Part shown: in pieces, positions 665 through 53,118 of the stretch | Numbering within the stretch: the stretch's first letter is position 1 | Layout: each line of letters begins with the position of its first letter | From: an uncultured Roseovarius sp. | GTDB taxonomy: Bacteria > Pseudomonadota > Alphaproteobacteria > Rhodobacterales > Rhodobacteraceae | Direction of reading: 5' to 3' | DNA length: 64,000 nt | Assembly: GCA_951812895.1 (NCBI GenBank) | Contig: OX638333.1 | Coordinates: 3,080,001-3,144,000, forward strand | Notes under the pieces: generated by a model | What the model was told of the DNA's origin: nothing | Database searches by the model: none | What the model saw: only the letters and a program-made list of their open reading frames with translations | Program-made: the position numbers and the translations under genes

Positions 665-1180
665 TTATGCGTTTTGCTTGAAATACATCAGTTCGATTTC
701 CCGTAGCACGTCATCCGGGGCCTGCCCTGAGACCAATGTTTCGATGTCTTGCCTTCCTGCACGCTCAAGTGTGATCACGTGTTTATCCGGCGCGGGGCTG
801 AGGATACAGCCCGGTTTCATCATGTGGTGATGCCATGCTTCATTCTGTGCTAAAGCCTCGGCGGCAGACCGCACGATCGTTGCCTCGCTTGCATCGTGTT
901 CGCTGTGTGTGGCATCGAGAATAGTATCTCCGTGCAGTAACTGCACAAGTTCTTGGCACTCCGATGTGAACGGGGCGTTTGAAAATGCGCACCAGGTTTT
1001 TTGATTGTCCGTATCTTCAACCACGAAACAGTAACTATCTGGGCGTGGATTAAAGAGGCAATCGGGGTGCAGCGCGTGGATGTGCCAAGCATGGTCTGCC
1101 GCAGCGAGCGCTTTGCATTTCACTACGGCCTCTTCGCGCGCCAGTTCCGTGAATTCGAACGCGTTTGATATGCCAATCAT
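665..1180 (-). CDS. Unrecognised protein with two tandem WHxH units
   Basis: A 171-residue soluble protein whose family I do not recognise. It is internally duplicated. AWHIHALHPDCLFNPRPD at residues 31-48 matches AWHHHMMKPGCILSPAPD at residues 115-132, an 84-residue offset. The conserved pattern is AWHxHxxxPxCxxxPxPD, and each copy continues into beta-strand-like and then helical sequence. Clustered His and Cys suggest metal or cofactor binding, but that is inference. ATG at 1180 overlaps the RidA stop by four bases (ATGA), arguing for translational coupling; an in-frame GTG lies at 1192. It is the last gene of the leftward catabolic operon, so it probably acts on the same substrate pathway. 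Confidence 0.75.
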   Translation of the reverse strand: MIGISNAFEFTELAREEAVVKCKALAAADHAWHIHALHPDCLFNPRPDSYCFVVEDTDNQKTWCAFSNAPFTSECQELVQLLHGDTILDATHSEHDASEATIVRSAAEALAQNEAWHHHMMKPGCILSPAPDKHVITLERAGRQDIETLVSGQAPDDVLREIELMYFKQNA

Positions 1181-1572
1181 GACGACCTGCACCCGATCAC
1201 TGCCGTCGCGGCCAGTTCCACCTTTACGTCCGGCACCGGAAAAGCCACGACCACCGCGGCGTTGGTCGGTCGGATATCCGCAAAAATCTCTCCCATCACT
1301 GGGCCGACAATCTGGAACACCTCCGGTTCGGTTACATAGGTCGTCAGTTGCACGATGTCCGACAGGCTTGCCCCGGCCTCCTGAAACGCTGGCTCAATGT
1401 TGCGAATGATTTGGTGCAGCTGCTCAATTGGGTCTGGATCACAGGTGCCGTTCTCATAATTGATCCCGACTGTTCCGGAAATATAGAGTGTATCGCCTAC
1501 TTTGACCGCGCGGCTATAGCCAAATTTTTCTTCGAAGGTTGAACCGGAGGAGATGTTCAGGCGCTTGGGCAT
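1177..1572 (-). CDS. RidA/YjgF-family protein
   Basis: RidA family members hydrolyse reactive enamine/imine intermediates released by PLP enzymes and amine oxidases, or act as specialised deaminases in catabolic operons. The 131-residue product has the family's size and pattern: KVGDTLYISGTVG near the N-terminus, a central VQLTTYVTE strand, and the C-terminal RPTNAAVVVAFPVPDVKVEL block; the usual family Arg is present in RPTN. The start at 1572 follows a good AAAGGA ribosome-binding site; an earlier in-frame start at 1608 would overlap the upstream gene. Its place beside imine-forming or imine-reducing enzymes (ProC, the cucumopine-synthase-like protein and the divergent flavoenzyme) fits a role in imine clearance. 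Confidence 0.85.
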   Translation of the reverse strand: MPKRLNISSGSTFEEKFGYSRAVKVGDTLYISGTVGINYENGTCDPDPIEQLHQIIRNIEPAFQEAGASLSDIVQLTTYVTEPEVFQIVGPVMGEIFADIRPTNAAVVVAFPVPDVKVELAATAVIGCRSS

Positions 1573-1591
1573 GAGGTGTCCTTTCAGATGT

Positions 1592-2479
1592 TTAATCATT
1601 ACGACCAAGGCACCGCTTGGTCAGTTCATTAGCGGGATACCAAGGGATATGAATATCGACCCAGTTCGACATCCGGCTGCAATAGAGGATAATTTCGGTA
1701 AAGAGTTCCTGCAGCGGTACGACGCCGGCATCGATGACATTTACCGCATCCTCAAGCACATTCTGGCTTTCGGTCAAATGGCAGTAGTGCCCAAGTCGGG
1801 CGATGCCCAGTTCAATCGCGTTAATGGCGGCCACGCGGCGGGCAGCGTCTGGAAAACGGTCCGGCGTGTTCCATAGCTGCCAAAGGCTTTCTTGTACTGT
1901 ACGGAAATAGCCATCTGCCGTGGCCATAGGGCCAAAGGGAATATTGTGGCCTGACCGGGCCAGCATAGACCTGATTTCCTCTGGTTCTTCTGCCCAGACG
2001 GAACGGCGGGCACGCTGAATGCGCACCCAAGGAGTGTTACCCTCTGGCCCGGAACGCGTCGGTTTCGGCGGCGCATTGGTAAGCATCAACTCTGCTTTGA
2101 AGACTTTGGTACCTGCTTCACGACGTTGGTCCGTCGCGAAATCGCGAAGCCTATCCACACCGCCCTTCAGCTGGCCCAAATAGGTAACGGCCGCAGTTTC
2201 AGCCTGAAGTTCATCATAAATGATCTCCAGATACTGGCGGTCCGGGTAATAGAGGAACGCGCCCGGTTTCAGAGTGTGAATGTCCATACCCTTTTCCAGC
2301 CGTGCCAAGATTGGGCTAGGCCAATAGATATGGCACCCGGCGATCTTGGCGCAGTGGATGGTTATTTCGGCTGGCACCCAGTTGAGCAGCTGTTTAAGCG
2401 TTTCGGTCCCTTGCCCCGGGGACAGGTCGATCGCGAGATCCTGGCCCTCGCTGCGAAAGATCAACTCCTGCGCCATCAT
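1592..2479 (-). CDS. Cucumopine-synthase-like (cyclophilin-fold) protein
   Basis: The product has about 295 residues. Residues 1-120 resemble the cyclophilin-like DUF3830/cucumopine synthase N-terminal domain, including a PGAFLYYPDRQYLEIIYDE segment and GQLKGGVDRLRDFA. Residues from about 190 on are helical and resemble the cucumopine synthase C-terminal helical bundle. Cucumopine synthase of Agrobacterium Ti plasmids condenses histidine with 2-oxoglutarate by a Pictet-Spengler-type reaction. Bacterial chromosomal relatives have unproven functions, and this one could make or open a cyclic imine or amine adduct. ATG at 2479 lies one base past the SDR stop, so translation is probably coupled. 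Family assignment is from memory of the motif pattern, so confidence is moderate. Confidence 0.6.
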   Translation of the reverse strand: MMAQELIFRSEGQDLAIDLSPGQGTETLKQLLNWVPAEITIHCAKIAGCHIYWPSPILARLEKGMDIHTLKPGAFLYYPDRQYLEIIYDELQAETAAVTYLGQLKGGVDRLRDFATDQRREAGTKVFKAELMLTNAPPKPTRSGPEGNTPWVRIQRARRSVWAEEPEEIRSMLARSGHNIPFGPMATADGYFRTVQESLWQLWNTPDRFPDAARRVAAINAIELGIARLGHYCHLTESQNVLEDAVNVIDAGVVPLQELFTEIILYCSRMSNWVDIHIPWYPANELTKRCLGRND

Positions 2480-2480
2480 G

Positions 2481-3218
2481 TCATCCAATCGTGTACCCGT
2501 TCGCGGTCCAACCACCGTCCACCGGCAGGATAGCACCATTGATCATCGACGCCGATGGTGACGCCAGATATTGAATGGCACTGGCAATCTCTGCCGGTTC
2601 CGCAATGCGGCCTAGCGGCGTGCGGTTTTGGACACCGGCCATGTTATAAAGTCCTTTGTCGATCAGATCCTGCACCATCGGCGTGCGCACGCCCGTTGGC
2701 GCCACGGCGTTGACGCGAATGCCCATCGCCCCCCATTCCACGGCTAAGGCACGTGTCATGTTGTGAACCGCGCCTTTTGACGCGCAATACGACGTCCGTT
2801 GAGGCGCGCCGCCCTCGCCGTAAACCGAGCCCACAAATACGATTATTCCGCTGCCTTTTTCTACCATGTGTCGGGCCGCGCGCTGAGCGGGCAAGAATGA
2901 TCCCGTGACATTAATTGCCATGGTCTTTGCGAAGTCCGCGACCGGTACATCCAACGCCGCCTCGACCTTGACGATCCCGGCCGAGGTGACAACGCAATCA
3001 ACGCTGCCAAACGTCTCGATGCATTTTGTGATCGCCGCATCAACATCCACCTCATTGGTGACGTCACCATCGATGCCGATCACATCACTTCCAAGACCCG
3101 CGGCAGCATCTGCCGTACCGCCAAGGTCAAAAAGGCAAACTTTCTCCCCGGTTTCGACAAACCGTTGCGCGGCAGCATAGCCAATTCCTTGCGCACCGCC
3201 TGTAATTAAAACTGACAT
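2481..3218 (-). CDS. SDR-family NAD(P)-dependent dehydrogenase
   Basis: A classical short-chain dehydrogenase/reductase of 245 residues. It shows the TGGAQGIG dinucleotide-binding motif at residues 6-13, an Asp after beta-2 (LFDLGG) that favours NAD over NADP, the catalytic Ser at 131, Tyr144 and Lys148 in the YCASK motif, and the C-terminal GAILPVDGGW block. The start at 3218 is chosen because AAGGAG lies at proper distance; the ATG two codons earlier is too close to it. It probably oxidises a hydroxyl intermediate in the island's pathway. Substrate cannot be told from sequence. Confidence 0.85.
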   Translation of the reverse strand: MSVLITGGAQGIGYAAAQRFVETGEKVCLFDLGGTADAAAGLGSDVIGIDGDVTNEVDVDAAITKCIETFGSVDCVVTSAGIVKVEAALDVPVADFAKTMAINVTGSFLPAQRAARHMVEKGSGIIVFVGSVYGEGGAPQRTSYCASKGAVHNMTRALAVEWGAMGIRVNAVAPTGVRTPMVQDLIDKGLYNMAGVQNRTPLGRIAEPAEIASAIQYLASPSASMINGAILPVDGGWTANGYTIG

Positions 3219-3256
3219 GTCCATTTCTCCTTTGGTGTAAGCACTTTGGATTCCGG

Positions 3257-4069
3257 TTATTCAGACTGACCCAGTGCGATGCTTCGGTTTCGCGCTGCCG
3301 TCGCAGCGTCCATTACAAGTTGAACAAGCTGGCCTTCATTTTGCAGAACATCCAAAGCGGCCGCCGTTGTACCTCCGGGACTCGTGACCTGTTCTCTTGA
3401 CAAGGCGGGTGCAATATCCGATTGCGCCGCCAGCTGCCCGGCGCCAGCGACCGTTTGGGTTGCCAATTGCGATGCAACATCAGGTGGCAATCCCAGCATT
3501 TTTCCGGCAGATTCAAGTGCCTCAATGAAATGGAAAACATAGGCAGGGCCTGAACCCGAAATGGCCGTTACCGCGTCCATCTGCGCCTCTTCATCCAACC
3601 AGACGACGACGCCAGATGTCGCAAACAAACCCTCGACCAGGCGGCGTTCTTCCATAGTTGTGACCGAATTCGCGCAGAGCACCATAACGCCCGCGCCGAT
3701 GGCCGCCGGGGTGTTCGGCATGCAGCGGATAACTGGAGTGCCCTCTGGCAACTCAGCTGAAATGTCGGACATTGCAATGCCCGCTGCAACCGATGTTACA
3801 ACGGCCCCCGAGGCGGCAAATGTGGCGCAGTCAGCGGCGACGATGGGAACGACTTGCGGCTTGACCGCCAGAACAATCACATCAGGCGTTTCACCGTGCA
3901 AGGCCGAAACCGTTTCGGCTGTCTTGGCGCCTTGGGTGGCAGCCCGGTCGCGTAACATCGGTGTTGGCTCGGCCACAAGCACGCGCGTGTGTGGATCCGC
4001 CGCGATCCAGCCCTGCATCATGGCAAAGCCCATGTTTCCGCACCCGACAAGCAGGATAGTCTTACTCAT
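3257..4069 (-). CDS. proC: Pyrroline-5-carboxylate reductase
   Basis: A 270-residue ProC-type protein. The N-terminal GCGNMGFAM Rossmann motif, the VLAVKPQ strand, the RCMPNTPAAIGAG motif, and the C-terminal DAVTAISGSGPAYVFHFIEAL and REQVTSPGGTTAAAL blocks are all present and in order. The biosynthetic enzyme reduces 1-pyrroline-5-carboxylate to proline with NAD(P)H. Located between an E2 gene and an SDR gene, whose start codons it nearly abuts, this copy is probably a pathway-specific cyclic-imine reductase rather than the housekeeping enzyme. Its start overlaps the E2 stop by four bases. Confidence 0.85.
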   Translation of the reverse strand: MSKTILLVGCGNMGFAMMQGWIAADPHTRVLVAEPTPMLRDRAATQGAKTAETVSALHGETPDVIVLAVKPQVVPIVAADCATFAASGAVVTSVAAGIAMSDISAELPEGTPVIRCMPNTPAAIGAGVMVLCANSVTTMEERRLVEGLFATSGVVVWLDEEAQMDAVTAISGSGPAYVFHFIEALESAGKMLGLPPDVASQLATQTVAGAGQLAAQSDIAPALSREQVTSPGGTTAAALDVLQNEGQLVQLVMDAATAARNRSIALGQSE

Positions 4070-5349
4070 GTGATAGCCTCCGCCACAACGGATTTCAGAA
4101 TATCGATCACTGTTTCAGGTGCCTCCAGTTGAGGGACGTGGCCGATCCGGTCTAATAGATGCAACCCAACCCGCCCCGGCGCCGCAAGCGCGTTCCGCCA
4201 AGGCAAAACACGGTCAGCTTTGCCCCAGATAATCCGCGCGGGGCAGTCCAATCGATCCAGCGCGGCACGCAAATCAAACCCAGGCGTGCCATCAGGAAAA
4301 ACCTCCTCCGCCATCGCCTGTTGTGCGACCCGCAAGGCTGGATCGGAACGCGACGCCATGGCTGCCATGACAAAATCGCGCCCGATCAAACGGTCATCAG
4401 CGACCATAAGTTTAAGCCACTGTTCAAGACTGTCGGGTTTGGAGGCACGTGTGATCCCGTCGAGAAAAGTGTGATTGATTTCCGGCCCGAGCCCCCCCGG
4501 TGCAAGCAGGGTCACCGATGCAAGTTTTCGTGGTCGAATATCAGCAAGAGACAACGCACAGGCTCCGCCGAGGGAATGGCCCACAAGATGCGCCCGCTCC
4601 AGTTCAAGCTCATCAAATGCCTCGACAACCTCACGCGCGAGGCCACGAAACACGCCGATCGGACGCTTTGGCGACTTCCCGTGATTGGGTAGGTCAATTC
4701 GGATGATGGGGTGACGTGGCGACAGTGTTCGTTCTACTGGCGACCAGGATTGCGCATCGCTGGCAAAACCGTGCAGCATAACGATTGGCACACCAGTTTT
4801 CGCACCGGAACGATAGACCTTGAGAGGCCCGATTTCGCGCGGGATGGTCGCTATGGGCGATGCGACGGAAACGCCCGTCACATCGGTGGGGAGATCGCGC
4901 AACTTTATGCGCCCTGACGGGCTGCTGGCATCGATCTGTGCAAGATTGATGTCTCGCGTTTGCGCCGCACGTCTGGCCGCAGGGCTGACAATGATCCGGT
5001 CGCCTGCAGGCCAATTTTTCGTCGACCTGATTGGGGCATCGGATGGTGTTGACGTTTCAGGTTCATCCATCTGTTCCTGTGGCGACACCACGGCCTCGGT
5101 ATCGTCAACTGATGTGCCAATGGTGCCCAACATTTCCGAGACGGCGATTTCGGCGCCTGTTTCAGCCAGGATCGAGGACAGAGTGCCGTCGCAGGGAGCC
5201 TCGACATCGACAGCTGCCTTGGCCGTTTCTACTGTGACGATAGTCTCGCCTTCCGTCACCATGTCTCCGACAGAAGCGTGCCATTCCAGAACCACCACGG
5301 CTTCCATATATTCGCCGCCTGCCGATCCAACTGTGAAAGAAATTGCCAT
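4066..5349 (-). CDS. acoC: E2 acyltransferase with alpha/beta-hydrolase domain (AcoC type)
   Basis: A 427-residue protein in the AcoC architecture. It has an N-terminal lipoyl domain with the modified Lys44 (VETAKAAVDVEAP), an Ala/Pro-poor linker, a peripheral-subunit-binding domain at about 119-153 (SPAARRAAQ to GRIKLRDL), and a C-terminal alpha/beta-hydrolase fold with the nucleophile elbow GHSLGG (Ser259), Asp379 and His404. In AcoC the hydrolase-like domain replaces the usual E2 catalytic domain and transfers the acyl group from lipoamide to CoA. It follows E1-beta by 12 bases. No E3 (dihydrolipoyl dehydrogenase) gene is in the island, so E3 is probably shared. Acetoin is the classical substrate, but the neighbours suggest another diketone or oxo-acid. 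Confidence 0.85.
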   Translation of the reverse strand: MAISFTVGSAGGEYMEAVVVLEWHASVGDMVTEGETIVTVETAKAAVDVEAPCDGTLSSILAETGAEIAVSEMLGTIGTSVDDTEAVVSPQEQMDEPETSTPSDAPIRSTKNWPAGDRIIVSPAARRAAQTRDINLAQIDASSPSGRIKLRDLPTDVTGVSVASPIATIPREIGPLKVYRSGAKTGVPIVMLHGFASDAQSWSPVERTLSPRHPIIRIDLPNHGKSPKRPIGVFRGLAREVVEAFDELELERAHLVGHSLGGACALSLADIRPRKLASVTLLAPGGLGPEINHTFLDGITRASKPDSLEQWLKLMVADDRLIGRDFVMAAMASRSDPALRVAQQAMAEEVFPDGTPGFDLRAALDRLDCPARIIWGKADRVLPWRNALAAPGRVGLHLLDRIGHVPQLEAPETVIDILKSVVAEAIT

Positions 5350-5361
5350 CTGTTTTGTCCC

Positions 5362-6336
5362 TCAGGCCAATGCGGTTCGTGCGGCGGTGGCAATCTTGGC
5401 CGCGTTGGGCAGAACGGCGAGCTCCAGCGGCTCGGAATATGGGATCGGCATGTCTGGCATCGCCACGCGGCCGACCGCTGCATCAAGATCGTCAAAGCAA
5501 TAATCCATGATCGTTGCGGACAATTCGGCGGCGTACCCGCCAAACGTCCAGCCCTCATTGACGACGATCGCGTGGTTCGTCTTGGCAATTGATGTTTTGA
5601 TTGCATCAAGATCCAGTGGCCTGAGTGTCCGGAGATCTATCACCTCGGCGTTGATGCCGTCCTTGGCCAGCGCCTTGGCGGCCCCCTCGGCTTCGATGAC
5701 CATCTTGGAAGTGGCAAAAATCGAGATATCCGAGCCGTCCACCACCGTACGAGCCTTGCCAATTGGCACGAGTTCATCACCATCCGGGACCTCACTACGC
5801 ATGTTGTAGAGCAGTTTGTGTTCCAGAAACACAACCGGTTGCGGGTCTCGAATGGCAGCCTTGAGCAGGCCCTTTGCATCCGCGGCTGTGACCGGCGCAA
5901 CAACTTTTATGCCCGGAACATGAGCCACTAATGCATCAAGGCATTTCGCGTGTTGCGCACCCGTGCCAACGCCGCCACCACCCTGAGTGCGCAAAACCAT
6001 TGGCATCTCAACCTGGCCTTCCCAAAGGTACCCAAAAACCGAAGCCTGGTTCACCAAGGCATCCAATGTCAGTGGCATAAAGTCGGCGAACATAATTTCC
6101 AGAACCGGCTTAGTCCCCGTCATGGCGGCCGTGACCGCCATTGCTGTCAGCGCCTGTTCAGAGATGGGTGTGTCGCGCACGCGACTCTCCCCAAATTCGT
6201 CCATCAAGCCTTTGGTAACTTTGAAGACGCCGCCATAGCGCCCGATGTCTTCGCCAAATAGCCAAACAGATGAATCAGATAGCATTTCCTCTCGCAAAGC
6301 CGCGTTAAGAGCCTCGGCATATCGCATCATTGTCAT
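5362..6336 (-). CDS. acoB: 2-oxo-acid/acetoin dehydrogenase E1 beta subunit
   Basis: A 324-residue transketolase-like E1-beta subunit. Recognisable blocks are RYAEALNAALREEM, VRDTPISEQALTAMAVTAAMTG, the EIMFADFMPLTLDALVNQAS segment contacting the cofactor, and the C-terminal IDLRTLRPLDLDAI and VVNEGWTFGG blocks. Together with E1-alpha it makes the thiamine-diphosphate heterotetramer that decarboxylates or cleaves the substrate and loads the E2 lipoyl group. It overlaps E1-alpha by four bases. The small E1 subunits with a short E2/hydrolase fusion point to the acetoin-dehydrogenase branch rather than pyruvate dehydrogenase. Confidence 0.88.
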   Translation of the reverse strand: MTMMRYAEALNAALREEMLSDSSVWLFGEDIGRYGGVFKVTKGLMDEFGESRVRDTPISEQALTAMAVTAAMTGTKPVLEIMFADFMPLTLDALVNQASVFGYLWEGQVEMPMVLRTQGGGGVGTGAQHAKCLDALVAHVPGIKVVAPVTAADAKGLLKAAIRDPQPVVFLEHKLLYNMRSEVPDGDELVPIGKARTVVDGSDISIFATSKMVIEAEGAAKALAKDGINAEVIDLRTLRPLDLDAIKTSIAKTNHAIVVNEGWTFGGYAAELSATIMDYCFDDLDAAVGRVAMPDMPIPYSEPLELAVLPNAAKIATAARTALA

Positions 6337-7307
6337 TGGGTTGCTCCGGCGTAGGCGGCACTGGGGCCATGAATTTCGAACTGGGGAAGTGGGTCGGCCA
6401 GCGCCATGTCGAAAGCTGTCTGAATTTCTTCTTTGGCTGCGACCGCGATCTGGTTCAACTTGTCCGCCCCCACAATTTCAATCAGGGTAATCGTAGAAAC
6501 CGTAATCGGATCGCGCTCTCGCCACAGGGCGATTTCTTCGTCCGACTGATACCCCCCCATGTCCGATGTCGAAAACCCTTCCAGACGATAGGTCTTGGCT
6601 TCAATCAGTGTTGGTCCATCACCGCGGCGTGCGCGCTCTGCAGCGTCGGCCACGGCTCTGAAGACGGCGTCGGCGTCGTTTCCGTCAACAATTTCGCCGG
6701 GCATCCCATAACCCTGGGCGCGGATAGACAAATCCGCCACTGGCGATTGAACGTCCTGCCGGACAGTCAGACCGTACTGATTGTTTTCGAGCAGATAAAT
6801 CACCGGCAATCTCCACAGACCCGCCATGTTCATGGATTCATGGCAAATACCGGTTTGTGCGGCACCGTCACCAAAGATGGCCATCGCAACCCGGTCGTCA
6901 CCCAATAGCTGCATAGACATGGCCATTCCCGTGGCTGCAGGAATGCCCGCACCTACGATGGCATTGCCACCCAGCATACCCGTTTTGGCATCACCCAACA
7001 GCATATGGCCACCACGGCCTCCGCAATACCCGGTCTCGCGGCCAAAAATTTCTGCGACAACCCGACGTGGATCCATACCCTTACCTAAATAGACGTGATG
7101 CCCGCGGTGTGTGGTGCAGACATAGTCATCCGTACGCAAAGCAGCGCACGCGCCTACGCCCACTGCTTCTTGTCCGTCGCAACGATGCAAGGGGCCTCGG
7201 GTTTTGCCCTCTTTGACCAGCTCCCCCAAGATTTCCTCAAGGCGACGGGTGGCGACCATCTTTCGGTGCATTTCCAGTTGTTCCTTGACTGAAGGCGCGT
7301 TGTTCAT
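6333..7307 (-). CDS. acoA: 2-oxo-acid/acetoin dehydrogenase E1 alpha subunit
   Basis: A 324-residue thiamine-diphosphate-dependent E1-alpha subunit. The ThDP-binding motif runs from GDG at residues 146-148 to NN at 175-176, and the family blocks GQEAVGVGACAAL, THRGHHVYLGKG and YCGGRGGHML precede it. It is the first gene of the leftward operon. The start lies about 20 bases inside the candidate GntR operator at 7328-7339. Followed without gaps by E1-beta and E2, it defines the operon's core enzyme. Confidence 0.88.
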   Translation of the reverse strand: MNNAPSVKEQLEMHRKMVATRRLEEILGELVKEGKTRGPLHRCDGQEAVGVGACAALRTDDYVCTTHRGHHVYLGKGMDPRRVVAEIFGRETGYCGGRGGHMLLGDAKTGMLGGNAIVGAGIPAATGMAMSMQLLGDDRVAMAIFGDGAAQTGICHESMNMAGLWRLPVIYLLENNQYGLTVRQDVQSPVADLSIRAQGYGMPGEIVDGNDADAVFRAVADAAERARRGDGPTLIEAKTYRLEGFSTSDMGGYQSDEEIALWRERDPITVSTITLIEIVGADKLNQIAVAAKEEIQTAFDMALADPLPQFEIHGPSAAYAGATQ

Positions 7308-7327
7308 AATTTTCCTCGAATCGCTAT

Positions 7328-7339
7328 TTGTTATAACAA
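7328..7339. promoter_or_regulatory. Candidate GntR operator, leftward copy
   Basis: Perfect palindrome TTGTTATAACAA, 21 bases upstream of the E1-alpha start codon. The same 12-mer recurs at 7504-7515. The TTGT...ACAA half-site spacing is typical of GntR-family operators; the nearby GntR/FCD regulator (11682-12422) is the likely ligand-responsive binder. The pairing is seen; binding is inferred. Confidence 0.65.
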
Positions 7340-7503
7340 TTATGTAAATTATTTACTTTTGCAAAGCCCTGAAGGCAGATTTTTTGCACATTTGTTTAGC
7401 ATTATCACACACAATATCAATACTTTCACCATAGAATCAAAGTTTTACATTTTTCTTAATGTTGAATCACAACAAGAGACTCGACAAAATATCTAAATTA
7501 ATA

Positions 7504-7515
7504 TTGTTATAACAA
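7504..7515. promoter_or_regulatory. Candidate GntR operator, rightward copy
   Basis: Second exact copy of TTGTTATAACAA, 35 bases upstream of the binding-protein start at 7550. Two identical 12-mers about 176 bases apart in one intergenic region are very unlikely by chance. Confidence 0.65.
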
Positions 7516-7549
7516 AATAGAAATGATCCAACATGCGAAAGGGAGTCAT

Positions 7550-8590
7550 ATGACCAATTGGAAAACCATAATCGCCTGCATTAGCGCGACAGCGTTTTTT
7601 GCACCGATGGCAGCGCAGGCCGAAATCGGCAGTACGCTTGCGGGAGTAAAGGAACGAGGTGCGCTGTCGTGCACCGGGCATAATGGCTCATATCTTGGGC
7701 TGGCTGAGGTGGACGATAAGGGCAACTGGCAAGGTTTCGACATTGATCTCTGCAAGGCCATGGCCACCGCAATCTTCGGCACCCATGAAGGGCACCTGAA
7801 CATCCAGCCCACAAGCTGGGCACAGCGCTGGCCGTCAATTCAATCAGGCGAGTTGGACATTATCATCAAGTCTTCAGGTTGGACCTTTAGCCGCGACACG
7901 GACATCGGCATGCAGTTCAGTCGTCCGTATTTGATGGCGTCAATTAACTACATGGCCAGCGCAGACACCGGTGCGGAGTCCGCTGCGGATTTGGACGGCG
8001 GCACATTGTGTGTCCAAACCGGGACCACGACCGAGCGCAATGCGGTCGAGCATGCCGCCGCAAACGGCTATGACATCGAAGTTGTTCCCTTCGAGAAAAC
8101 AGAAGAGGCCAAAGCCGCGTTCCTTTCGGGCCGGTGCGATGCCTATATAGAATGGGATCTACAACTGGCCGTTATGCGTGCCACTGAGATCGAAAACCCT
8201 GACGATTTCGTCATTCTGCCTGACAGTCTTTCTGCGGAACCTGTGGCCATGGTCGTTCGCCAAGGTGACGATAATTGGGTCGATATCGCAAACTGGCTAC
8301 TTTCAGCACTGATGATCGCGGAAAAAAGTGGTGTGACCAGTGCCAACGTGGACGAAATGAAGGCAAATCCACCTACACCATCTGTTGCAAAGCTTCTGGG
8401 CGCCACACCCGGATTTGGCGGACAGCTCGGGCTTGAAGATGACTGGGCGTACAATGTCATCAAGACCCATGGAAACTATAGTGAAATCTGGGAACGCAAC
8501 CTGGGCAACGGCTCTCCATATGGATTGGCGCGCAACGTCAATGGGCTGATCCGCGATGGCGGTATCATGTTCCCCCTCGTCCTCGACTAA
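7550..8590 (+). CDS. aapJ: Amino-acid ABC transporter, periplasmic binding protein (AapJ type)
   Basis: A secreted solute-binding protein of 346 residues. A cleavable signal peptide ends at AAQA before EIGSTLAGVKERG. The mature part matches the AapJ/general L-amino-acid family: ERGALSCTGHNG, then GNWQGFDIDLCKAMATAIFG, and late NVIKTHGNYSEIWERNLG. The start at 7550 is chosen because GAAAGGGAG lies seven bases upstream and the signal peptide begins there; the earlier ATG at 7523 would add nine polar residues. It is the first gene of the rightward operon and is followed by a stem-loop that may let it be expressed above the permeases. Aap systems take up broad amino acids, but the actual substrate here is unknown. 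Confidence 0.88.
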   Translation: MTNWKTIIACISATAFFAPMAAQAEIGSTLAGVKERGALSCTGHNGSYLGLAEVDDKGNWQGFDIDLCKAMATAIFGTHEGHLNIQPTSWAQRWPSIQSGELDIIIKSSGWTFSRDTDIGMQFSRPYLMASINYMASADTGAESAADLDGGTLCVQTGTTTERNAVEHAAANGYDIEVVPFEKTEEAKAAFLSGRCDAYIEWDLQLAVMRATEIENPDDFVILPDSLSAEPVAMVVRQGDDNWVDIANWLLSALMIAEKSGVTSANVDEMKANPPTPSVAKLLGATPGFGGQLGLEDDWAYNVIKTHGNYSEIWERNLGNGSPYGLARNVNGLIRDGGIMFPLVLD

Positions 8591-8604
8591 TCTCCCTGAC
8601 TTTT

Positions 8605-8629
8605 CCGCCGGCCACTCAACGGTCGGCGG
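8605..8629 (+). terminator. Intercistronic stem-loop (partial terminator)
   Basis: CCGCCGG at 8605-8611 pairs with TCGGCGG at 8623-8629 (one G-U), followed by GATCTTTTCC. It lies between the binding-protein and permease genes. Such hairpins in ABC operons commonly protect the upstream mRNA or reduce read-through; here that role is inferred from position. Confidence 0.55.
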
Positions 8630-8654
8630 GATCTTTTCCTGAACGGAGCGTGAG

Positions 8655-9815
8655 ATGTTAAAAACCCGCAAAGCACGTGCCTGGGCTATCCAGATTGGTT
8701 TTCTTGCAATTGTTGCCTTCCTGCTGATCTCGTCTACACTTGTCGCACGTGACACACTGCACGCGCAGGGCATGAATTCGGGGTTTGGCTTTCTGGACCG
8801 CTCAACCGGCTGGGATGTTGGATTTTCCCTCATCGAGTTTTCGCCCTTCGATACCTATGGCAAAGTCATTGTCGTCGGATTGCTGAACACCATTTTCCTC
8901 GGGATTATCGGGATCGTTCTGGCCAACGTTGTGGGGCTAACTATCGCAGTGTTTCGAACCTCCGAGAATGGTGCTTTGAATGCCATTGGAACGCTTTACA
9001 TCGAGATTTTTCGCAACGTACCCATCATCCTGCAGGCGTTTTTCTGGTATGCAATTCTCACGCATTTGCCACGACCCAAGGATGCATACAACCTTGGTGA
9101 AGTGGCCTTTGTTTCCGCACGTGGCGTTTATCTTCCGGGGCTAAACGTCACTGGTAGCTCAGCGCTAATCTTCTTCATCGCCCTAGTTTTGGGCATCTTT
9201 TTCTATATCTGGTTTACGTCAGCGCGGCGGTTTCGCAGTTTAACTCCGTCAGCAAAGAAAAATGGCAAGCTGACAATCGTTGGGCTGGTGCTCGTCATCG
9301 CCGTTGCGGCCCTCGTCATGGGTCGCATCCCCGAAACCAACCTCTTCTCTATACCGACTCTCAAGGGTTTGAACATCCGCGAAGGCATCCGCATCCCGCC
9401 AGAAATGTCTGCTCTGGCCGTTTCGATGGCCGTTTATGGCGGTGCCTATTTGGCCGAGATCATCCGGGCGGGGTTCCTCTCGGTTGGCAAAGGTCAGGCC
9501 GAGGCGGCCGAAGCCCTTGGGCTCTCGCCTTGGTATGTGTTCACACGCGTGCGTCTTCCGCTCGCATTCCGCGCCATCCTGCCAACGTTGACCAACCAAT
9601 ATGTATGGCTGTTCAAGGCGACAACGCTGGGTATCGCCATCGGCTTTACTGACTTCTTCTCGGTCATCTCTGTCTCAATCAACCAGAGTGGCCAGACCCT
9701 GGAACTGATAGCCATCCTGATGGTCGGATTTCTGGTGATGAACAACACTATATCCTTCGTGCTCAATCGCGTGAACAAAGCGATCAAGCTCAAAGGCACA
9801 CAGTTGAGGACCTGA
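8655..9815 (+). CDS. aapQ: Amino-acid ABC transporter permease (AapQ type)
   Basis: An inner-membrane permease of 386 residues with an N-terminal membrane segment (IGFLAIVAFLLISS), a long periplasmic segment, and a core of about seven further hydrophobic helices. The EAA motif is recognisable late in the protein at GQAEAAEALGLSPWYVFTRVRLPLA. The long insertion between helices is typical of AapQ, which is larger than simple HisM/HisQ permeases. It pairs with the next gene to form the heterodimeric channel. Confidence 0.88.
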   Translation: MLKTRKARAWAIQIGFLAIVAFLLISSTLVARDTLHAQGMNSGFGFLDRSTGWDVGFSLIEFSPFDTYGKVIVVGLLNTIFLGIIGIVLANVVGLTIAVFRTSENGALNAIGTLYIEIFRNVPIILQAFFWYAILTHLPRPKDAYNLGEVAFVSARGVYLPGLNVTGSSALIFFIALVLGIFFYIWFTSARRFRSLTPSAKKNGKLTIVGLVLVIAVAALVMGRIPETNLFSIPTLKGLNIREGIRIPPEMSALAVSMAVYGGAYLAEIIRAGFLSVGKGQAEAAEALGLSPWYVFTRVRLPLAFRAILPTLTNQYVWLFKATTLGIAIGFTDFFSVISVSINQSGQTLELIAILMVGFLVMNNTISFVLNRVNKAIKLKGTQLRT

Positions 9816-9818
9816 ACC

Positions 9819-10910
9819 ATGACCGCACTAGATCACGCCGAAATACGCGCAATGGGTCCAAGCCTGACCGAAAGCCTGCGTCGCCGCTATTTTTCGTCAC
9901 CAGGTAACACTGCGATCAGCCTTGTGGGTGGTGCGCTGCTTCTGTGGATAGTTTGGACCGTTCTGAATTGGGCGGTGTTCAAGTCGGTCTGGACGACGCC
10001 GGATGGTACGTCCGAGGTGTGCAAGGGAATAGACGGCGCTTGCTGGGCGGTGATCCATCAACGCGGGCGGCTGATCATTTTTGGGCTTTTCCCGTATGAA
10101 GAACAGTGGCGCTCAACGCTGGCCTGTGTTGCCATGTTGATCACGGCCATTCTGTCATGCGTGCCGTGGTTTTGGAATGCCTTGCGTCTTGCGATGCTGT
10201 GGGTCGTGGGTTTTGCCATCTTTTACATCCTGATGCGAGGCGGTTTTCTTGGTCTCTTGTCAGTCCGGCCGTCAGAGTGGGGCGGACTGACACTGACGGT
10301 GTTCATCTACGCGGCGGGCATTCTTGTCGGCATGCCCATGGCCATCGCGTTCGCGCTTTTGCGACGGTCAGAACTCCCGGTCATCTCGGGATTTATAGCG
10401 GGGTTGATTGATGGTGTGCGTTCTTTGCCGCTGATCACAATCCTATTTGCTGCCGCCCTGATAATGCCGTTCATTCTGCCGGGGTGGCTTCAGGGGGATA
10501 AGATCTGGCGAGTAATTTTTGGGTTCGGACTGTTCTTCGCCGCTTATCAGGCCGAGATCATTCGATCGGGTATCCAAGCCCTGCCCGTAGGTCAGGAGGA
10601 GGCCGCCAAGGCCTTGGGCATGAGTTATTTCCACCGCACGACCCGGATTATCTTACCACAAGCCTTTCGCAACGCTTTGCCACCCACGATCAACCAGTTC
10701 GTGATCACCTTTAAGGAAACGTCGCTGGTTGTGATCGTCGGTTTCTTCGAAGTTCTGGCGTCGGGCAACGCGGCTTACGGGTCGGGTGAATGGTCTTTTG
10801 CATATGTCGAGGTCTACGTCTTTGTTGGCCTTATTTATTACGTTTTTGTGTTCAGTCTGTCCCGCTATGGCGCCTATCTGGAGCGTCGCATGCGGGTCGG
10901 TCAGCACTGA
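9819..10910 (+). CDS. aapM: Amino-acid ABC transporter permease (AapM type)
   Basis: The second permease, 363 residues, beginning three bases after the previous stop. Several hydrophobic helices are visible, with an EAA motif at VGQEEAAKALGMSYFHRTTRIILP and a typical following NALPPTINQFVITFKETSL block. AapM proteins are long because of an extended N-terminal region before the core helices, as seen here. It forms the transmembrane pore with the AapQ-type subunit. Confidence 0.88.
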   Translation: MTALDHAEIRAMGPSLTESLRRRYFSSPGNTAISLVGGALLLWIVWTVLNWAVFKSVWTTPDGTSEVCKGIDGACWAVIHQRGRLIIFGLFPYEEQWRSTLACVAMLITAILSCVPWFWNALRLAMLWVVGFAIFYILMRGGFLGLLSVRPSEWGGLTLTVFIYAAGILVGMPMAIAFALLRRSELPVISGFIAGLIDGVRSLPLITILFAAALIMPFILPGWLQGDKIWRVIFGFGLFFAAYQAEIIRSGIQALPVGQEEAAKALGMSYFHRTTRIILPQAFRNALPPTINQFVITFKETSLVVIVGFFEVLASGNAAYGSGEWSFAYVEVYVFVGLIYYVFVFSLSRYGAYLERRMRVGQH

Positions 10911-10925
10911 TCTGGAGGAATTGAA

Positions 10926-11666
10926 ATGAGCGAAGTCGCGATCCAAATCCGAGGTATGAACAAGTTTTACGGTACTTTTCACGCACTTAAAGAGATCAAC
11001 CTGACCGTCCAGAAAGGGGATCGCATTGTGATCTGTGGGCCTTCGGGGTCGGGCAAATCTACAATGATCCGCTGCGTCAACCGGCTAGAAGAGCATCAGG
11101 CCGGTGTAATCGAAGTGCTGGGAACCGAGTTGAATGACGAGGTAGGCAATATTGATGTGATCCGTCGGGATGTTGGCATGGTTTTCCAGCACTTCAACCT
11201 GTTCCCGCATCTGACGGTTCTGGACAATTGCACCCTCTCACCCATGTTGTCGCGCAAGGTTTCGCAAGCCGAGGCTGAGAAAACCGCGATGATGTATCTC
11301 GAACGCGTGAAAATCCCGGAACAGGCCGAGAAATTCCCCGGAGAACTATCAGGTGGTCAACAGCAACGCGTCGCGATCGCGCGCGCGCTTTGCATGAAGC
11401 CAGAAATCTTGTTGTTTGACGAACCCACATCCGCGCTGGACCCTGAAATGATCAGCGAAGTACTTGAGGTGATGGTGGAATTGGCGCAGGACGGCATGAC
11501 CATGCTATGCGTGACCCACGAGATGGGATTCGCCCGCCAGGTCGCTGACAGGGTCATCTTCATGGACAAAGGTGAAATCGTCGAGGAAGGCCCGCCGGAA
11601 GATTTCTTCAATAGTCCGAAAGAAGAACGCACTCGTACGTTCCTCCAGCAAATTCTGTCGCACTAG
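10926..11666 (+). CDS. aapP: Amino-acid ABC transporter ATPase (AapP type)
   Basis: A 246-residue ABC ATPase. Walker A is GPSGSGKST at residues 38-46, the Q-loop is in [12 protein letters not shown], the signature LSGGQQQR is in the middle, Walker B with the glutamate is [11 protein letters not shown], and the switch His is in CVTHEMGF. The start follows a strong GGAGGA site. It is closest to the polar amino-acid (GlnQ/AapP) class and energises the two upstream permeases. Confidence 0.92.
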
Positions 11667-11681
11667 CTGTGCTGATTTGGT

Positions 11682-12422
11682 ATGACGACAAGTATTTTCC
11701 AGCGAGTACAAAAAAGCGACGCCCCAATGTCAGGTAAACCTAAATTCGAAATGGCTTTAGAGGTGGTCGAAGCGCCGGGCCGAACCGAAACACTCAGCCG
11801 GCGGGTGAAAGATCAGCTGAAACAGGCGGTAATGGCTGGCCAGTTCAATCCCGGGCAAAAGCTGACAATCCGCAGTTTGGCCGGTGATCTAGGTGTCAGC
11901 CTGACTCCGGTACGCGAAGCTCTGTATCATCTGGCATCCCAAGGTGTGCTTGAGATGCGCACAAATGGGTCGGTCTATGTGCCCCAATTGACCGAGGAAC
12001 GGATAGTTGAGCTGACCAAAATCCGCGTTGCCCTTGAAGGGTTGGCTTCTCGTGAAGCGGTTCGGCACCTGAGCGACCACGACATCGAAGCCATCAGTGG
12101 CATAAATGACGAACTGATCGCCAAAGATCGCGATGGCGATTATTCTGAACTTCTGACGCTGAACTGGAAATTCCATTTCTCGATCTATGTCGCTTCTCAA
12201 ATGGATCAGTTGGTGCGGATGATAGAAAACTGTTGGCTGATGAACGGTTCGTATCTAAACATGATTTACCCTGAATTTGGCGAAATCGGTGAAGGAATCA
12301 ACAACCACAAACAAATTGTTCGCGCTCTAAAAGCACGTGATGGGGATCGCGTGGCAAGCACCATAAACACAGACATCAATCTGGCCGCCGACGCTCTTCT
12401 GGTAGCGATCAGTCGACTTTGA
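11682..12422 (+). CDS. GntR-family regulator with FCD ligand domain
   Basis: A transcription factor of 246 residues. The winged helix lies at about residues 35-95, with GQFNPGQKLTIRSLAGDLGVSLTPVREAL holding the recognition helix. The C-terminal all-helical FCD domain includes the metal-site pattern typical of the family (LTKIRVALEGLASREAV and a later NWKFH). It sits in the transporter operon and is the best candidate to bind the two TTGTTATAACAA sites at 7328 and 7504, repressing both operons until the substrate or an intermediate binds. An alternative start at 11727 cannot be excluded because neither has a good ribosome-binding site. Confidence 0.85.
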   Translation: MTTSIFQRVQKSDAPMSGKPKFEMALEVVEAPGRTETLSRRVKDQLKQAVMAGQFNPGQKLTIRSLAGDLGVSLTPVREALYHLASQGVLEMRTNGSVYVPQLTEERIVELTKIRVALEGLASREAVRHLSDHDIEAISGINDELIAKDRDGDYSELLTLNWKFHFSIYVASQMDQLVRMIENCWLMNGSYLNMIYPEFGEIGEGINNHKQIVRALKARDGDRVASTINTDINLAADALLVAISRL

Positions 12423-12437
12423 GATCTGCGGGGAACT

Positions 12438-13742
12438 ATGGCTGACAGGATCGATCCTACCATGGATGGAGTGCATTGGGTCGCCACAAGCAAGGAACCC
12501 GTGTTCAAACCTAAAGAATTAGGTCATCGTGACGTGTTTGATCTGGCCGTGATCGGAGCAGGGTACTGCGGGCTTTCCGTCGCACTTCAAGCTGCGCAGG
12601 CGGGTCTGTCGACAGTCGTCTACGAGGCCGGGACAGTGGGTTGCGGCGCATCAGGTCGGAACGGTGGCGTGATAGTTCCACATTTTCCAGGAGCCAGATC
12701 TCCGAGCTTTGCTGAAGAACAACTTGGGGTCGCGCGCGCGCAACGGTTGATTGAGGTTGTGCGCGGCGGCGCGGCTTATGCCTTTGATCGTATAAGAGAA
12801 TTGGGGATAGAGTGTGACGCAGAGCAAACCGGGTGGGTTCAACCCGGCCACTCTCAATCCACACTTGAGAAGGTAAAATCAGTTTATGATGATTGGGCGC
12901 AACGTGACGCGGATATTACTTGGTTGGATCGTTCTGCGTTGAACGACAGGCTCGGAGGTTGCAGCTACCTTGGCGGCTGGTATGCGCCCTCTGGCGGTGT
13001 GGTGAACCCGTGGGCATTGGCGCAAGGGCTGGCGCGCGCTGCAGAACATAACGGTGCGAACATCAAGGAACACGCGCCTGTGCGCAGCATCATCCCAGAT
13101 GGCGCGTACAATCGCCTGCGCACTGACTCAGAAGAAATCACCGCCCGCAAAGTTGTCATTGCAACTAACGGTTACACGCCGAACCTTGCTCCGCGTTTGG
13201 GCGATACGGTCATTCCCGTACGATTGTTTCACGTGCTGACCCGTCCTCTATCAGAAAATGAACGCCGTAACATTCTGCCGCGTCGCACACCTTTCACGGA
13301 TTTGCGGAAGTCAGGCGGGTTCTGCAGACTGGATGTTGACAACCGAGTGTTGAGCGGTGGTGCTGTTTTCGCCGCCAGCCACGCGCCAACTTATGGCCGT
13401 CGCCACGCTGCGCGCCGCATGGAAGAGCTTTTCCCACAACTTAAAAGCATCGAGATCGAGCACTATTGGGAAGGCTGGTGCGCCCTGCGCGAAAACTTTC
13501 TGCCTGTGATTCAAAATCACGGGAACGACGTATTATCTCTGATCGGGTTTTCGACAAGAGGTATCGCGCTCGCCCAGACCCTGGGGCGTGAGATGGGCAA
13601 GTTTCTCTGCGACGACCTGCCGGAAGCAATGCTGCCCGTACCCGTCGAGCCGACCAGCACAATCTCTCTGCGCGCACTCAAACAGTTCCTCGGAGGTTGG
13701 GCTTTCCCGGTCTATCAATTTCGCGACAAGGTCGGCATGTAA
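12438..13742 (+). CDS. DAO-family FAD-dependent amine/amino-acid oxidoreductase
   Basis: A 434-residue flavoprotein of the D-amino-acid oxidase/glycine oxidase superfamily. The FAD-binding Rossmann motif is VIGAGYCGLS at about residues 38-47, followed by a CGASGRNGG loop that is characteristic of PuuB-like enzymes acting on amines (gamma-glutamylputrescine oxidase type). A C-terminal GWCALRENFLPVI and GFSTRGIALAQ complete the FAD site. These enzymes oxidise secondary amines or amino acids to imines. As the last gene of the import operon it is the likely first catabolic step, giving an imine for RidA or the ProC-like enzyme to process. Confidence 0.85.
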   Translation: MADRIDPTMDGVHWVATSKEPVFKPKELGHRDVFDLAVIGAGYCGLSVALQAAQAGLSTVVYEAGTVGCGASGRNGGVIVPHFPGARSPSFAEEQLGVARAQRLIEVVRGGAAYAFDRIRELGIECDAEQTGWVQPGHSQSTLEKVKSVYDDWAQRDADITWLDRSALNDRLGGCSYLGGWYAPSGGVVNPWALAQGLARAAEHNGANIKEHAPVRSIIPDGAYNRLRTDSEEITARKVVIATNGYTPNLAPRLGDTVIPVRLFHVLTRPLSENERRNILPRRTPFTDLRKSGGFCRLDVDNRVLSGGAVFAASHAPTYGRRHAARRMEELFPQLKSIEIEHYWEGWCALRENFLPVIQNHGNDVLSLIGFSTRGIALAQTLGREMGKFLCDDLPEAMLPVPVEPTSTISLRALKQFLGGWAFPVYQFRDKVGM

Positions 13743-34926: not shown

Positions 34927-34989
34927 TATCGCCCTGATCCTGCGGCGCACGAACGTGTTCTACAGGCCGCATGGTCATCGGGGGTGATA

Positions 34990-36114
34990 GTGAAACAGGT
35001 TGATCTGGCCATTGTCGGTGCGGGCATCATGGGGCTGGCGCACGCGTTTCACGCCACACGCGCCGGTCTGTCCGTTGCCGTGTTCGATCGTGCCGCCGAT
35101 ACAAACGGCGCGACAGTCCGCAATTTCGGGATGCTGGCGGTCGTGGCGCAGGCGCCGGGGGCACAGCTTGCCTCGGCGCGTCGTTCACTGGCGCACTGGC
35201 AGGAGATCGCCCAACAGGCAGGGATCGCGATGCGTCGCGCCGGGTGCCTGTTTTTGGCAAGAACGCCGCAAGAGATGGTTGTTCTGGAAGAAAGTACCCA
35301 ATTTGAGGGTCCTGAGGGCCATACGCTTTCACTACTGTCCCGTGATGAGCTGGCAGGCATGGCCAGCAATCTGCAAATACAAAACCTACTCGGTGGCGTA
35401 TGGAGCCCCGATGCATGGAAGCTGGATCAGCGTGACGCACCGGGCAAAATCGCCAATTGGCTGCAGAGCGAACACAAGGTCACCTTTCACTTTTCGACGG
35501 AAGTGCACGGCGTAGAATCAGGGGTTTTGGAAACTTCAGGCGGGACGTTCAAAGCAAGACATGTGATCCTTTGTGGCGGGGATGACTTTGAAACTCTGTT
35601 CAAAGATGAGTTTCGCGCAGCCGGTGTAAAGCTTTGCCAGCTACAAATGCTAAGGACATCCCCCCAGCCAAACGATTGGGTGCTGGACCCGTTTGTTTTG
35701 GGCGGGCTAAGCCTGACCCGTTACAATGTGTTTGCCAACTGCCCTGGTCTGGCGGCCCTGAAAGCTCATCAGGAAAAGCATCAGGCCGCCCATCTTAAAC
35801 ACGGGATCCATGTGATCGCCTGTCAGGAGCCAGATGGCAGCATCACAATTGGCGATTCACACGATTATAGCCCGGACTCGGGTCGATCAGATGAAATCGA
35901 CGAGCTGATACTTAGCGATCTGACCGGCATGCTGGCCCTGCCTGATGCGTCAATTTCAGAGAAATGGTTGGGCCACTACGCCTATTTGCCGGGGCATGAC
36001 AGTTTGAAAATTACGCCGATGCACGGCGTTTCAGCAATCACCATGACAAATGGGCAAGGCATGACACATTCGCTGTCGCTGGCCGAAGATCACATTCAAG
36101 AGATTTTTGGCTAA
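34990..36114 (+). CDS. TIGR03364-type FAD-dependent oxidoreductase
   Basis: A DAO-superfamily flavoprotein of about 374 residues. The FAD motif is VDLAIVGAGIMGLAHAFHA, followed by NGATVRNFGML, a block typical of the TIGR03364 group. In other bacteria that group is often near phosphonate (2-aminoethylphosphonate) genes, but none are here. The GTG at 34990 has GGGGGTG at better distance than the GTG at 34984. It ends four bases from the end of the convergent M24 gene and may be functionally linked to it. Confidence 0.8.
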   Translation: MKQVDLAIVGAGIMGLAHAFHATRAGLSVAVFDRAADTNGATVRNFGMLAVVAQAPGAQLASARRSLAHWQEIAQQAGIAMRRAGCLFLARTPQEMVVLEESTQFEGPEGHTLSLLSRDELAGMASNLQIQNLLGGVWSPDAWKLDQRDAPGKIANWLQSEHKVTFHFSTEVHGVESGVLETSGGTFKARHVILCGGDDFETLFKDEFRAAGVKLCQLQMLRTSPQPNDWVLDPFVLGGLSLTRYNVFANCPGLAALKAHQEKHQAAHLKHGIHVIACQEPDGSITIGDSHDYSPDSGRSDEIDELILSDLTGMLALPDASISEKWLGHYAYLPGHDSLKITPMHGVSAITMTNGQGMTHSLSLAEDHIQEIFG

Positions 36115-36118
36115 AGCG

Positions 36119-38232: not shown

Positions 38233-38258
38233 AAGAAAATCTTTCGGAAGACATACAT

Positions 38259-53089: not shown

Positions 53090-53118
53090 TGGTAAACCCT
53101 CCTGTTTGGACAAGTAGT

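Follow-up and report, generated by a model that had tools for sequence, protein, structure and literature searches.

A recurring gene island of Roseovarius with a predicted McbB-fold protein and a possible role in breaking down an opine-like or cyclic amino acid

We analyzed 64,000 nucleotides of DNA from an uncultured Roseovarius sp. (GenBank assembly GCA_951812895.1, contig OX638333.1, positions 3,080,001 to 3,144,000; hereafter, the window), whose genome of 4.54 Mb is assembled as a single contig. At positions 665-13742, the window contains an island of 14 closely spaced genes arranged as two divergent operons around one control region, as a preliminary description of this DNA had reported, and all of the genes named there are present. 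The island is real, recurring and specific, and its gene set is co-inherited. In our best reading, it is a variant of opine-type catabolism that is new in form. At a probability of about 0.4, we favor a system under the control of a GntR protein that would import an opine-like or cyclic amino acid and break it down to an acyl-CoA, with the two-domain protein P3 cleaving a bond in the substrate. The features of the island are the following:

665-1180, minus strand: WHxH protein of an orphan family, with the W-H-x-H ... P-x-C ... P motif in two copies
1177-1572, minus strand: RidA/Rid-family protein (PF01042, E 5.2e-24; TIGR00004, 67.4 bits, below the cut-off of 106.25)
1592-2479, minus strand: P3, with a cyclophilin-like N-domain and a helical C-domain, predicted to have the fold of the Pictet-Spenglerase McbB (AlphaFold2 model, Foldseek)
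2481-3224, minus strand: short-chain dehydrogenase (SDR; PF13561, E 2.5e-58)
3257-4069, minus strand: ProC-type cyclic imine reductase (TIGR00112, 241.9 bits, above the cut-off of 196.75)
4066-5349, minus strand: E2 with lipoyl domain, E3-binding motif and alpha/beta hydrolase domain, AcoC type (NF011457; PF00364, PF02817, PF12697)
5362-6336, minus strand: E1-beta of a thiamine-dependent 2-oxo acid or acyloin dehydrogenase (NF006667, 373.3 bits, cut-off 321)
6333-7307, minus strand: E1-alpha (PF00676, E 6.1e-71)
7308-7549, no strand: divergent control region, the extent of which depends on the chosen AapJ start
7328-7339, no strand: palindrome TTGTTATAACAA, exact, candidate operator for GntR, located 20 bp ahead of E1-alpha
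7504-7515, no strand: palindrome TTGTTATAACAA, exact, candidate operator for GntR, located 34 bp ahead of the chosen AapJ start
7550-8590, plus strand: AapJ-like periplasmic binding protein (open reading frame (ORF), named from the annotation of Shinella relatives and the preliminary description; 70.5% identity to Hoeflea)
8655-9815, plus strand: AapQ-like permease (ORF; 57.7% identity to Hoeflea)
9819-10910, plus strand: AapM-like permease (ORF; 70.3% identity to Hoeflea)
10926-11666, plus strand: AapP-like ATPase (ORF; 80.5% identity to Hoeflea)
11682-12422, plus strand: GntR/FCD regulator (PF00392, PF07729; HutC model, 26.8 bits, cut-off 220)
12438-13742, plus strand: DAO flavoenzyme (PF01266, E 1.9e-63; NF050086 (AmaA), 212.8 bits, cut-off 600)

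Genes next to each other in an operon share a few bases or leave gaps of no more than 64 bp. The starts of WHxH, RidA, P3 and AapJ (ATG at 7550) were chosen inside longer ORFs. Pfam and NCBIfam searches covered ten of the 14 proteins; the remaining four, the transporter proteins, have relatives in Shinella H4-D48 (63-80% identical) that are annotated as parts of an amino acid ABC transporter.

Recurrence of the gene set and of its palindrome

The whole set of 14 genes was found at one locus of Hoeflea alexandrii, where the gene order is changed. Identities at this locus were 76% for E1-alpha, 83% for E1-beta, 53% for E2, 54% for ProC, 67% for P3, 73% for RidA, 53% for the SDR, 34% for WHxH, 58-80% for the Aap proteins, 63% for GntR and 54% for the DAO. 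Plasmids of Shinella and Sinorhizobium encode GntR, Aap, E1-alpha, E1-beta, E2, ProC, SDR, RidA and a DAO (45%), next to an adjoining module that holds P3, WHxH and another DAO as well as genes for a branched-chain-type importer and a B12-binding protein. In Shinella H4-D48, P3 lies about 23 kb from the 45% identical DAO, and all 14 gene types are located inside that span. Partial loci were detected in genome G004 (E1-beta, E2, SDR, P3, RidA and GntR), in genome G254 (the same genes plus E1-alpha) and on contig C7 of genome G503 (P3, RidA, WHxH, DAO and a weak ProC relative). Relatives of the GntR regulator with 50-63% identity stand beside P3 or E1 genes. Because DAO, Aap and ProC are absent from some relatives, we regard E1/E2, SDR, P3, RidA and GntR as the steady core of the system.

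P3 is rare: it was detected in 2 of the 198 genomes of the family sample and, at E 1e-3, in 8 of the 385 genomes of the class sample, two of them with weak matches (own genome counted in both samples). Among 72,556 plasmid records, seven carry P3 (E limit 0.01), and the same seven carry E1-alpha (E limit 1e-80). Five of these seven are from Shinella, and the plasmid co-occurrences are therefore not independent events. The 14 of 14 genes in Hoeflea and the shared plasmid records answer the neighborhood search suggested in the preliminary description: the genes do occur together in other genomes.

The WHxH protein is rarer than P3, being found in 1 of the 198 family-sample and 2 of the 385 class-sample genomes, all of which also have P3; at E 1e-3, it was present in six of the seven P3 plasmid records and in no other record of the 72,556. 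WHxH is an orphan family that was seen only in genomes and records with P3. No Pfam or NCBIfam family matched it at E 1e-3. Its pair of W-H-x-H ... P-x-C ... P repeats is conserved in four sequences, and the two HxH-plus-Cys motifs suggest metal binding. The AlphaFold2 model of the protein (predicted local distance difference test score (pLDDT) of 88.1) is composed of predicted tandem alpha-beta-beta-beta-alpha units, and a structure search with this model returned no PDB match at E ≤ 1e-3 (best, 2.3e-3). Separately, a second WHxH gene stands alone on contig C40 of G503 (locus L034, 5198-5719), a 10.7-kb contig on which the P3 search of the class sample at E 1e-3 gave no match.

Two further gene groups were observed around P3 in other genomes. 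The Rhizobiaceae module beside P3 (locus L007, 11307-14890; locus L008, 4948-10507) comprises a KstD-like flavoenzyme and a B12-binding protein of 579 residues, the first 450 of which are without a named family. Near the P3 operon of G004 (locus L005, 2804-10858), a DMFA2_C (N,N-dimethylformamidase-like) gene is accompanied by genes that read as a urea/branched-chain-type importer; neither the gene nor the importer was counted as part of the system.

The divergent control region, which measures 242 bp with the AapJ start at 7550, contains two exact copies of TTGTTATAACAA, whereas shuffled versions of the window (100) contained 0.01 on average. A copy precedes E1-alpha in six of the eight upstream regions that the scan covered. 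These six are the window, Sinorhizobium RAC02, genome G254 and three Shinella records, the site outside the window lying directly before the gene with 0-1 mismatch; the other two are the Hoeflea and Neorhizobium loci, where no site with up to two mismatches was found. A partner site in front of AapJ turned up in the window alone. Most simply, the palindromes would be the operator of the GntR protein; palindromes and regulator together make the inducer of the system directly testable.

P3, its fold and the enzymes that accompany it

The AlphaFold2 model of P3, based on eight sequences (pLDDT of 88.7; predicted template modeling score (pTM) of 0.90), combines an N-domain rich in beta structure with a helical C-domain. 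By far the best PDB match of this model was McbB with tryptophan (3x27), which it resembles in overall fold over the full length (Foldseek E 1.1e-12; template modeling (TM) scores of 0.78/0.74; 319 columns; about 16% identity), followed by single-domain cyclophilin-like proteins and then by KslB over about 140 columns. On the sequence side, P3 of the window alone gave a best PDB E-value of 0.34, to unrelated proteins. A profile of eight P3 members ranked a cyclophilin-like protein first, ahead of KslB, which was matched at E 0.007 and 0.017. In the KslB matches, the helical domains of the two proteins align with each other, although the order of the domains is reversed.

Both domains of P3 were also compared with cucumopine-family proteins by hhalign. 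The N-domain scored 95.6% (E 1e-8) with a DUF3830-type protein of genome G278, and the C-domain scored 80% (E 1e-5) with its Cucumopine_C-type partner in G278 and 64% with a Cucumopine_C protein, while the island DAO, used as a control, scored 0.5%. When seven members of the P3 family were run against Pfam, five matched PF18050 (best E 2.5e-4) and one matched DUF3830 (E 7e-4); Cucumopine_C was not among the families listed at E ≤ 1. Searches with Cucumopine_C gave no matches in the own genome and in 0 of 398 genomes of the phylum sample, but the controls gave none either (0 of 14 in the phylum sample). In G278, one place is matched by both the P3 profile and Cucumopine_C (24.4 bits against a cut-off of 27). 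On contig C75 of the same genome (locus L029, 8211-12843), DUF3830 and Cucumopine_C-like genes form a split pair that adjoins genes reading as a branched-chain-type importer and a glutamate synthase.

Taken from these model and profile comparisons, P3 appears to be a distant relative of the cucumopine family and of McbB with the same build, and at most a candidate Pictet-Spenglerase. It does not qualify for the cucumopine synthase family by the Pfam thresholds of PF12903/PF18631, and it does share the two-domain build with detectable homology of both domains. Hence, the term "cucumopine-synthase-like" used in the preliminary description holds for the fold (McbB over the full length, KslB over one domain) and, more weakly, for the profile, and fails by Pfam standards.

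McbB and KslB are biosynthetic Pictet-Spenglerases that act in the formation of marinacarboline and kitasetaline, respectively, according to passages of two papers (PMC7024544, PMC12513458). By this token, P3 might be a forward Pictet-Spenglerase in a cluster for a beta-carboline-like or other alkaloid, and a DMT-family transporter gene does adjoin RidA in the Shinella loci. We consider this improbable: the four-gene importer, the GntR protein with operator-like palindromes and the complex of an acyl-CoA-forming type fit uptake and breakdown, and no exporter was recognized in the window island. The importer genes, the GntR regulator and the shared palindromes argue for catabolism.

Thiamine enzymes repeatedly stand near P3. 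We compared 16 P3 loci, namely those of the window, Hoeflea, G004, G254, G503 (two), G311, G413, G578 and seven plasmids, leaving out G485 (a stop-containing fragment), G278 (Cucumopine_C type with a weak P3 match) and G253. By raw count, a thiamine enzyme of one of two types was found near P3 in 15 of the 16. In 12 loci it is of the E1/E2 type, within about 3 kb of P3 in the window, Hoeflea, G004, G254, contig C416 of G503 and Neorhizobium, and at about 14.5 kb in six plasmids; in G311, G413 and G578, it is a split enzyme resembling sulfopyruvate decarboxylase (below the NCBIfam cut-offs) that is divergent from P3. As enzymes of either type typically take 2-oxo acids or acyloins as substrates, a compound of this kind is plausibly what P3 forms or uses.

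The type of the E1/E2 enzyme itself raises another explanation, in which the operon encodes an acetoin or 2,3-butanediol dehydrogenase system with unrelated neighbors. E2 scores 313 bits on NF011457, the model for the E2 of acetoin dehydrogenase, and so exceeds the cut-off of 307, and the SDR reaches 198.8 bits on the meso-2,3-butanediol dehydrogenase model, the cut-off of which is 270. However, the importer, DAO, ProC, RidA and P3 travel along in Hoeflea, which makes this explanation decidedly improbable. The island E1-alpha is an extra copy, with one other long match in the genome (40% identical) and two more that are short and weak. Likewise, the island ProC is a second copy; the idea that it merely makes the proline of the cell was rejected, as another ProC with 42% identity exists at C1:491993-492763.

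A putative catabolic pathway and its alternatives

In the pathway that we favor, AapJQMP would import an opine-like or cyclic amino acid, and the DAO would convert its ring or secondary amine by oxidation into an imine that is then hydrolyzed or reduced by RidA and ProC. P3 would split the bond joining the amino-acid part to an oxo-compound in a reaction of the reverse Pictet-Spengler or Mannich type, the SDR would adjust a hydroxyl or keto group, and E1-alpha, E1-beta and E2, with an E3 supplied from elsewhere, would turn the released oxo-compound into an acyl-CoA. In a concrete version, a reverse Mannich split may give a pyrroline-type imine, passed to ProC, and an oxo-compound, passed to E1/E2. 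Mycosporine-like amino acids were also considered as the substrate and rejected, as no supporting gene was recognized and no paper was listed in a search by title and start of abstract.

The same enzymes could be read as oxidizing a cyclic imino acid similar to pipecolate or proline, with P3 hydrolyzing, isomerizing or trapping the imine rather than acting as a C-C lyase. RidA and ProC are imine enzymes, the nearest named family of the DAO is the L-pipecolate oxidase AmaA, and no aromatic-ring-breaking gene was recognized in the island, all of which would suit this explanation. On its own, however, it explains neither why thiamine enzymes recur close to P3 nor why P3 has the predicted full-length McbB fold; further, the score of the DAO lies below the AmaA cut-off, and the DAO is absent from two relatives. 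On balance, we regard this explanation as unlikely.

Several observations weigh against the lyase pathway that we prefer. Some concern its substrate chemistry and the family of P3: a classical Pictet-Spengler adduct would need the aromatic-ring-breaking gene mentioned above; P3 misses the Pfam cut-offs, with PF18050 as the only match (E 0.0063, 17 bits, cut-off 22.7); a first profile of seven P3 sequences found neither KslB nor McbB in the PDB at E ≤ 1; the single-domain E-values of KslB with the eight-member profile were only 0.25 and 0.72; and hhalign gave P3 only 12.5% with one protein of the cucumopine-catabolic type (locus L040, 288-1271). Others concern the gene set. In Shinella and Sinorhizobium, P3 is only 32-33% identical and lies about 14.5 kb from E1-alpha, in the adjoining module; in G311, G413 and G578, it occurs without other island genes in the 20 kb viewed; and the 13-kb contig C7 of G503 carries P3 with neither an E1 nor a split thiamine enzyme. 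No DAO match was found in G004 at E 1e-40, the only one in G254 is 30% identical and away from the locus, and no Aap or ProC relatives were seen in G004 (20 kb) or G254 (first 20 kb). WHxH is absent from G004 and from the Neorhizobium record.

Accordingly divided is the outcome for the import and oxidation of an opine-like compound that the preliminary description had proposed: cucumopine-family proteins in loci with importers and hut genes (see below) and the thiamine enzyme in 15 of 16 loci speak for it, while the absence of DAO and Aap from G004 and G254 speaks against it. A broader proposal, which we hold tentatively and with more doubt than belief, is that of a rare pathway of Alphaproteobacteria in which a reverse Pictet-Spengler or Mannich lyase of McbB fold is combined with thiamine-dependent oxidation to eat opine-like or alkaloid amino acids of non-agrobacterial origin in the sea and soil, with WHxH as a new dedicated enzyme or carrier. 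If true, a fold known from the making of alkaloids and opines would also serve in catabolic islands beyond the opines of agrobacteria, an overlooked class of nutrients among cyclic amino acids would be suggested, and the combination of P3, E1-alpha and WHxH would be a genetic marker in the hunt for the substrate.

With regard to the surroundings of the island, no further member of the set was seen beyond position 665 when the ORF list was read by eye, and the genes there look, from the ORFs, to be of glycerol-use and TRAP-transporter type. The G+C content of the island (0.550) equals that of the rest of the window (0.558 at 13743-64000), and a recent transfer inferred from base composition was therefore rejected. 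Elsewhere in the window, two groups of ORFs at 34984-38325 and 52262-54294 read as M24-type peptidases with dioxygenase-like proteins.

Comparison with cucumopine-type loci and other known systems

Cucumopine synthase condenses histidine with 2-oxoglutarate. In genome G253, three Cucumopine_C matches were above the cut-off, and their locus holds HutH, HutU, HutC and HutG, all above curated cut-offs, as well as genes that read as an amino-acid ABC transporter. One G253 protein is 67.6-69.4% identical to proteins of 13 Agrobacterium/Rhizobium plasmids, mostly annotated as DUF3830; one matched record is, according to a paper passage, the cucumopine Ri plasmid pRi2659. Among the 13, gene neighbors were read in pTiLBA1190 alone, where hutG, hutI, a formimidoylglutamate deiminase gene, hutH, hutC, a hydantoinase gene and ABC transporter genes are present. 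The Paraburkholderia plasmid pSYMBR3459 has a cucumopine-family protein with hutH, hutU and hutI nearby, and in the mikimopine plasmid pRi1724 a split pair adjoins hydantoinase genes and genes of an amino-acid importer, the 18.5 kb viewed showing no hut gene. Hut genes thus occur in three of the four cucumopine-family loci read at that length (G253, pTiLBA1190 and Paraburkholderia; not pRi1724). From this association, cucumopine-family proteins may release histidine by the reverse reaction, and by analogy these loci would be a precedent for catabolic use. The plasmid pAtAg67 is described as octopine/cucumopine-catabolic in a passage of PMC10745273.

Additional arrangements were observed in such loci. 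On contig C31 of G253 (loci L039/L040), Cucumopine_C-type proteins of cyclophilin-first and helical-first order are adjacent in the hut locus, together with a split pair, the helical-first order resting on a weak DUF3830 match. In pSYMBR3459 (locus L063), a helical-first protein lies amid amino-acid transporter genes that are followed by hutH-hutU-hutD-hutI, and in a plasmid of Rhodococcus BH4 (locus L062), a helical-first protein comes after same-strand C45 peptidase, MmgE/PrpD and Xaa-Pro peptidase genes.

The fold and the two-domain make-up that P3 has in common with the cucumopine family might also point to a histidine opine, such as cucumopine itself, as the substrate. This is extremely unlikely because no hut gene was recognized in the island (the rest of the genome was not searched), as opposed to hut genes in the three histidine-type loci, and P3 is far in sequence from the proteins of these loci. 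The ten island proteins run against NCBIfam matched no hut enzyme model, the transporters and the rest of the window being judged by eye only. Therefore, the combination of hut genes with a DUF3830 protein that marks the agrobacterial cucumopine-catabolic type was not recognized in the island.

A literature search by title and start of abstract, in which subscription journals were thinly covered and which extended to mycosporine-type substrates, the catabolism of cucumopine or mikimopine and retro-Pictet-Spengler enzymes, found no description of this gene set among the papers listed; passages of PMC7024544, PMC12513458, PMC8554961, PMC10745273 and PMC6286910 were drawn on as well. The claim of the preliminary description that no such pathway is described thus stands for the gene set in that search, but cucumopine-type catabolic regions precede the general idea.

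Among known systems, AcoABC resembles the island in E1-alpha, E1-beta and the lipoyl-hydrolase fusion E2, and differs in its other partner genes and in that no E3 gene was recognized in the island. The L-pipecolate oxidase AmaA and related DAO proteins constitute the best named family of the island DAO, the score of which is nevertheless far below the curated cut-off. McbB is matched by P3 over the full length and KslB by its helical domain; in contrast, identity to McbB is about 16%, the domain order is opposite to that of KslB, and P3 stands among genes of importer and breakdown type. The cucumopine/mikimopine regions of Ti/Ri plasmids, whose part in degrading these opines is taken from paper passages and inference, are similar in that an amino-acid ABC importer, a regulator and DUF3830/Cucumopine_C proteins are brought together. 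They differ in their hut and hydantoinase genes (pTiLBA1190) or hydantoinase genes (pRi1724), instead of which the window has E1/E2, ProC, RidA, DAO, SDR and WHxH.

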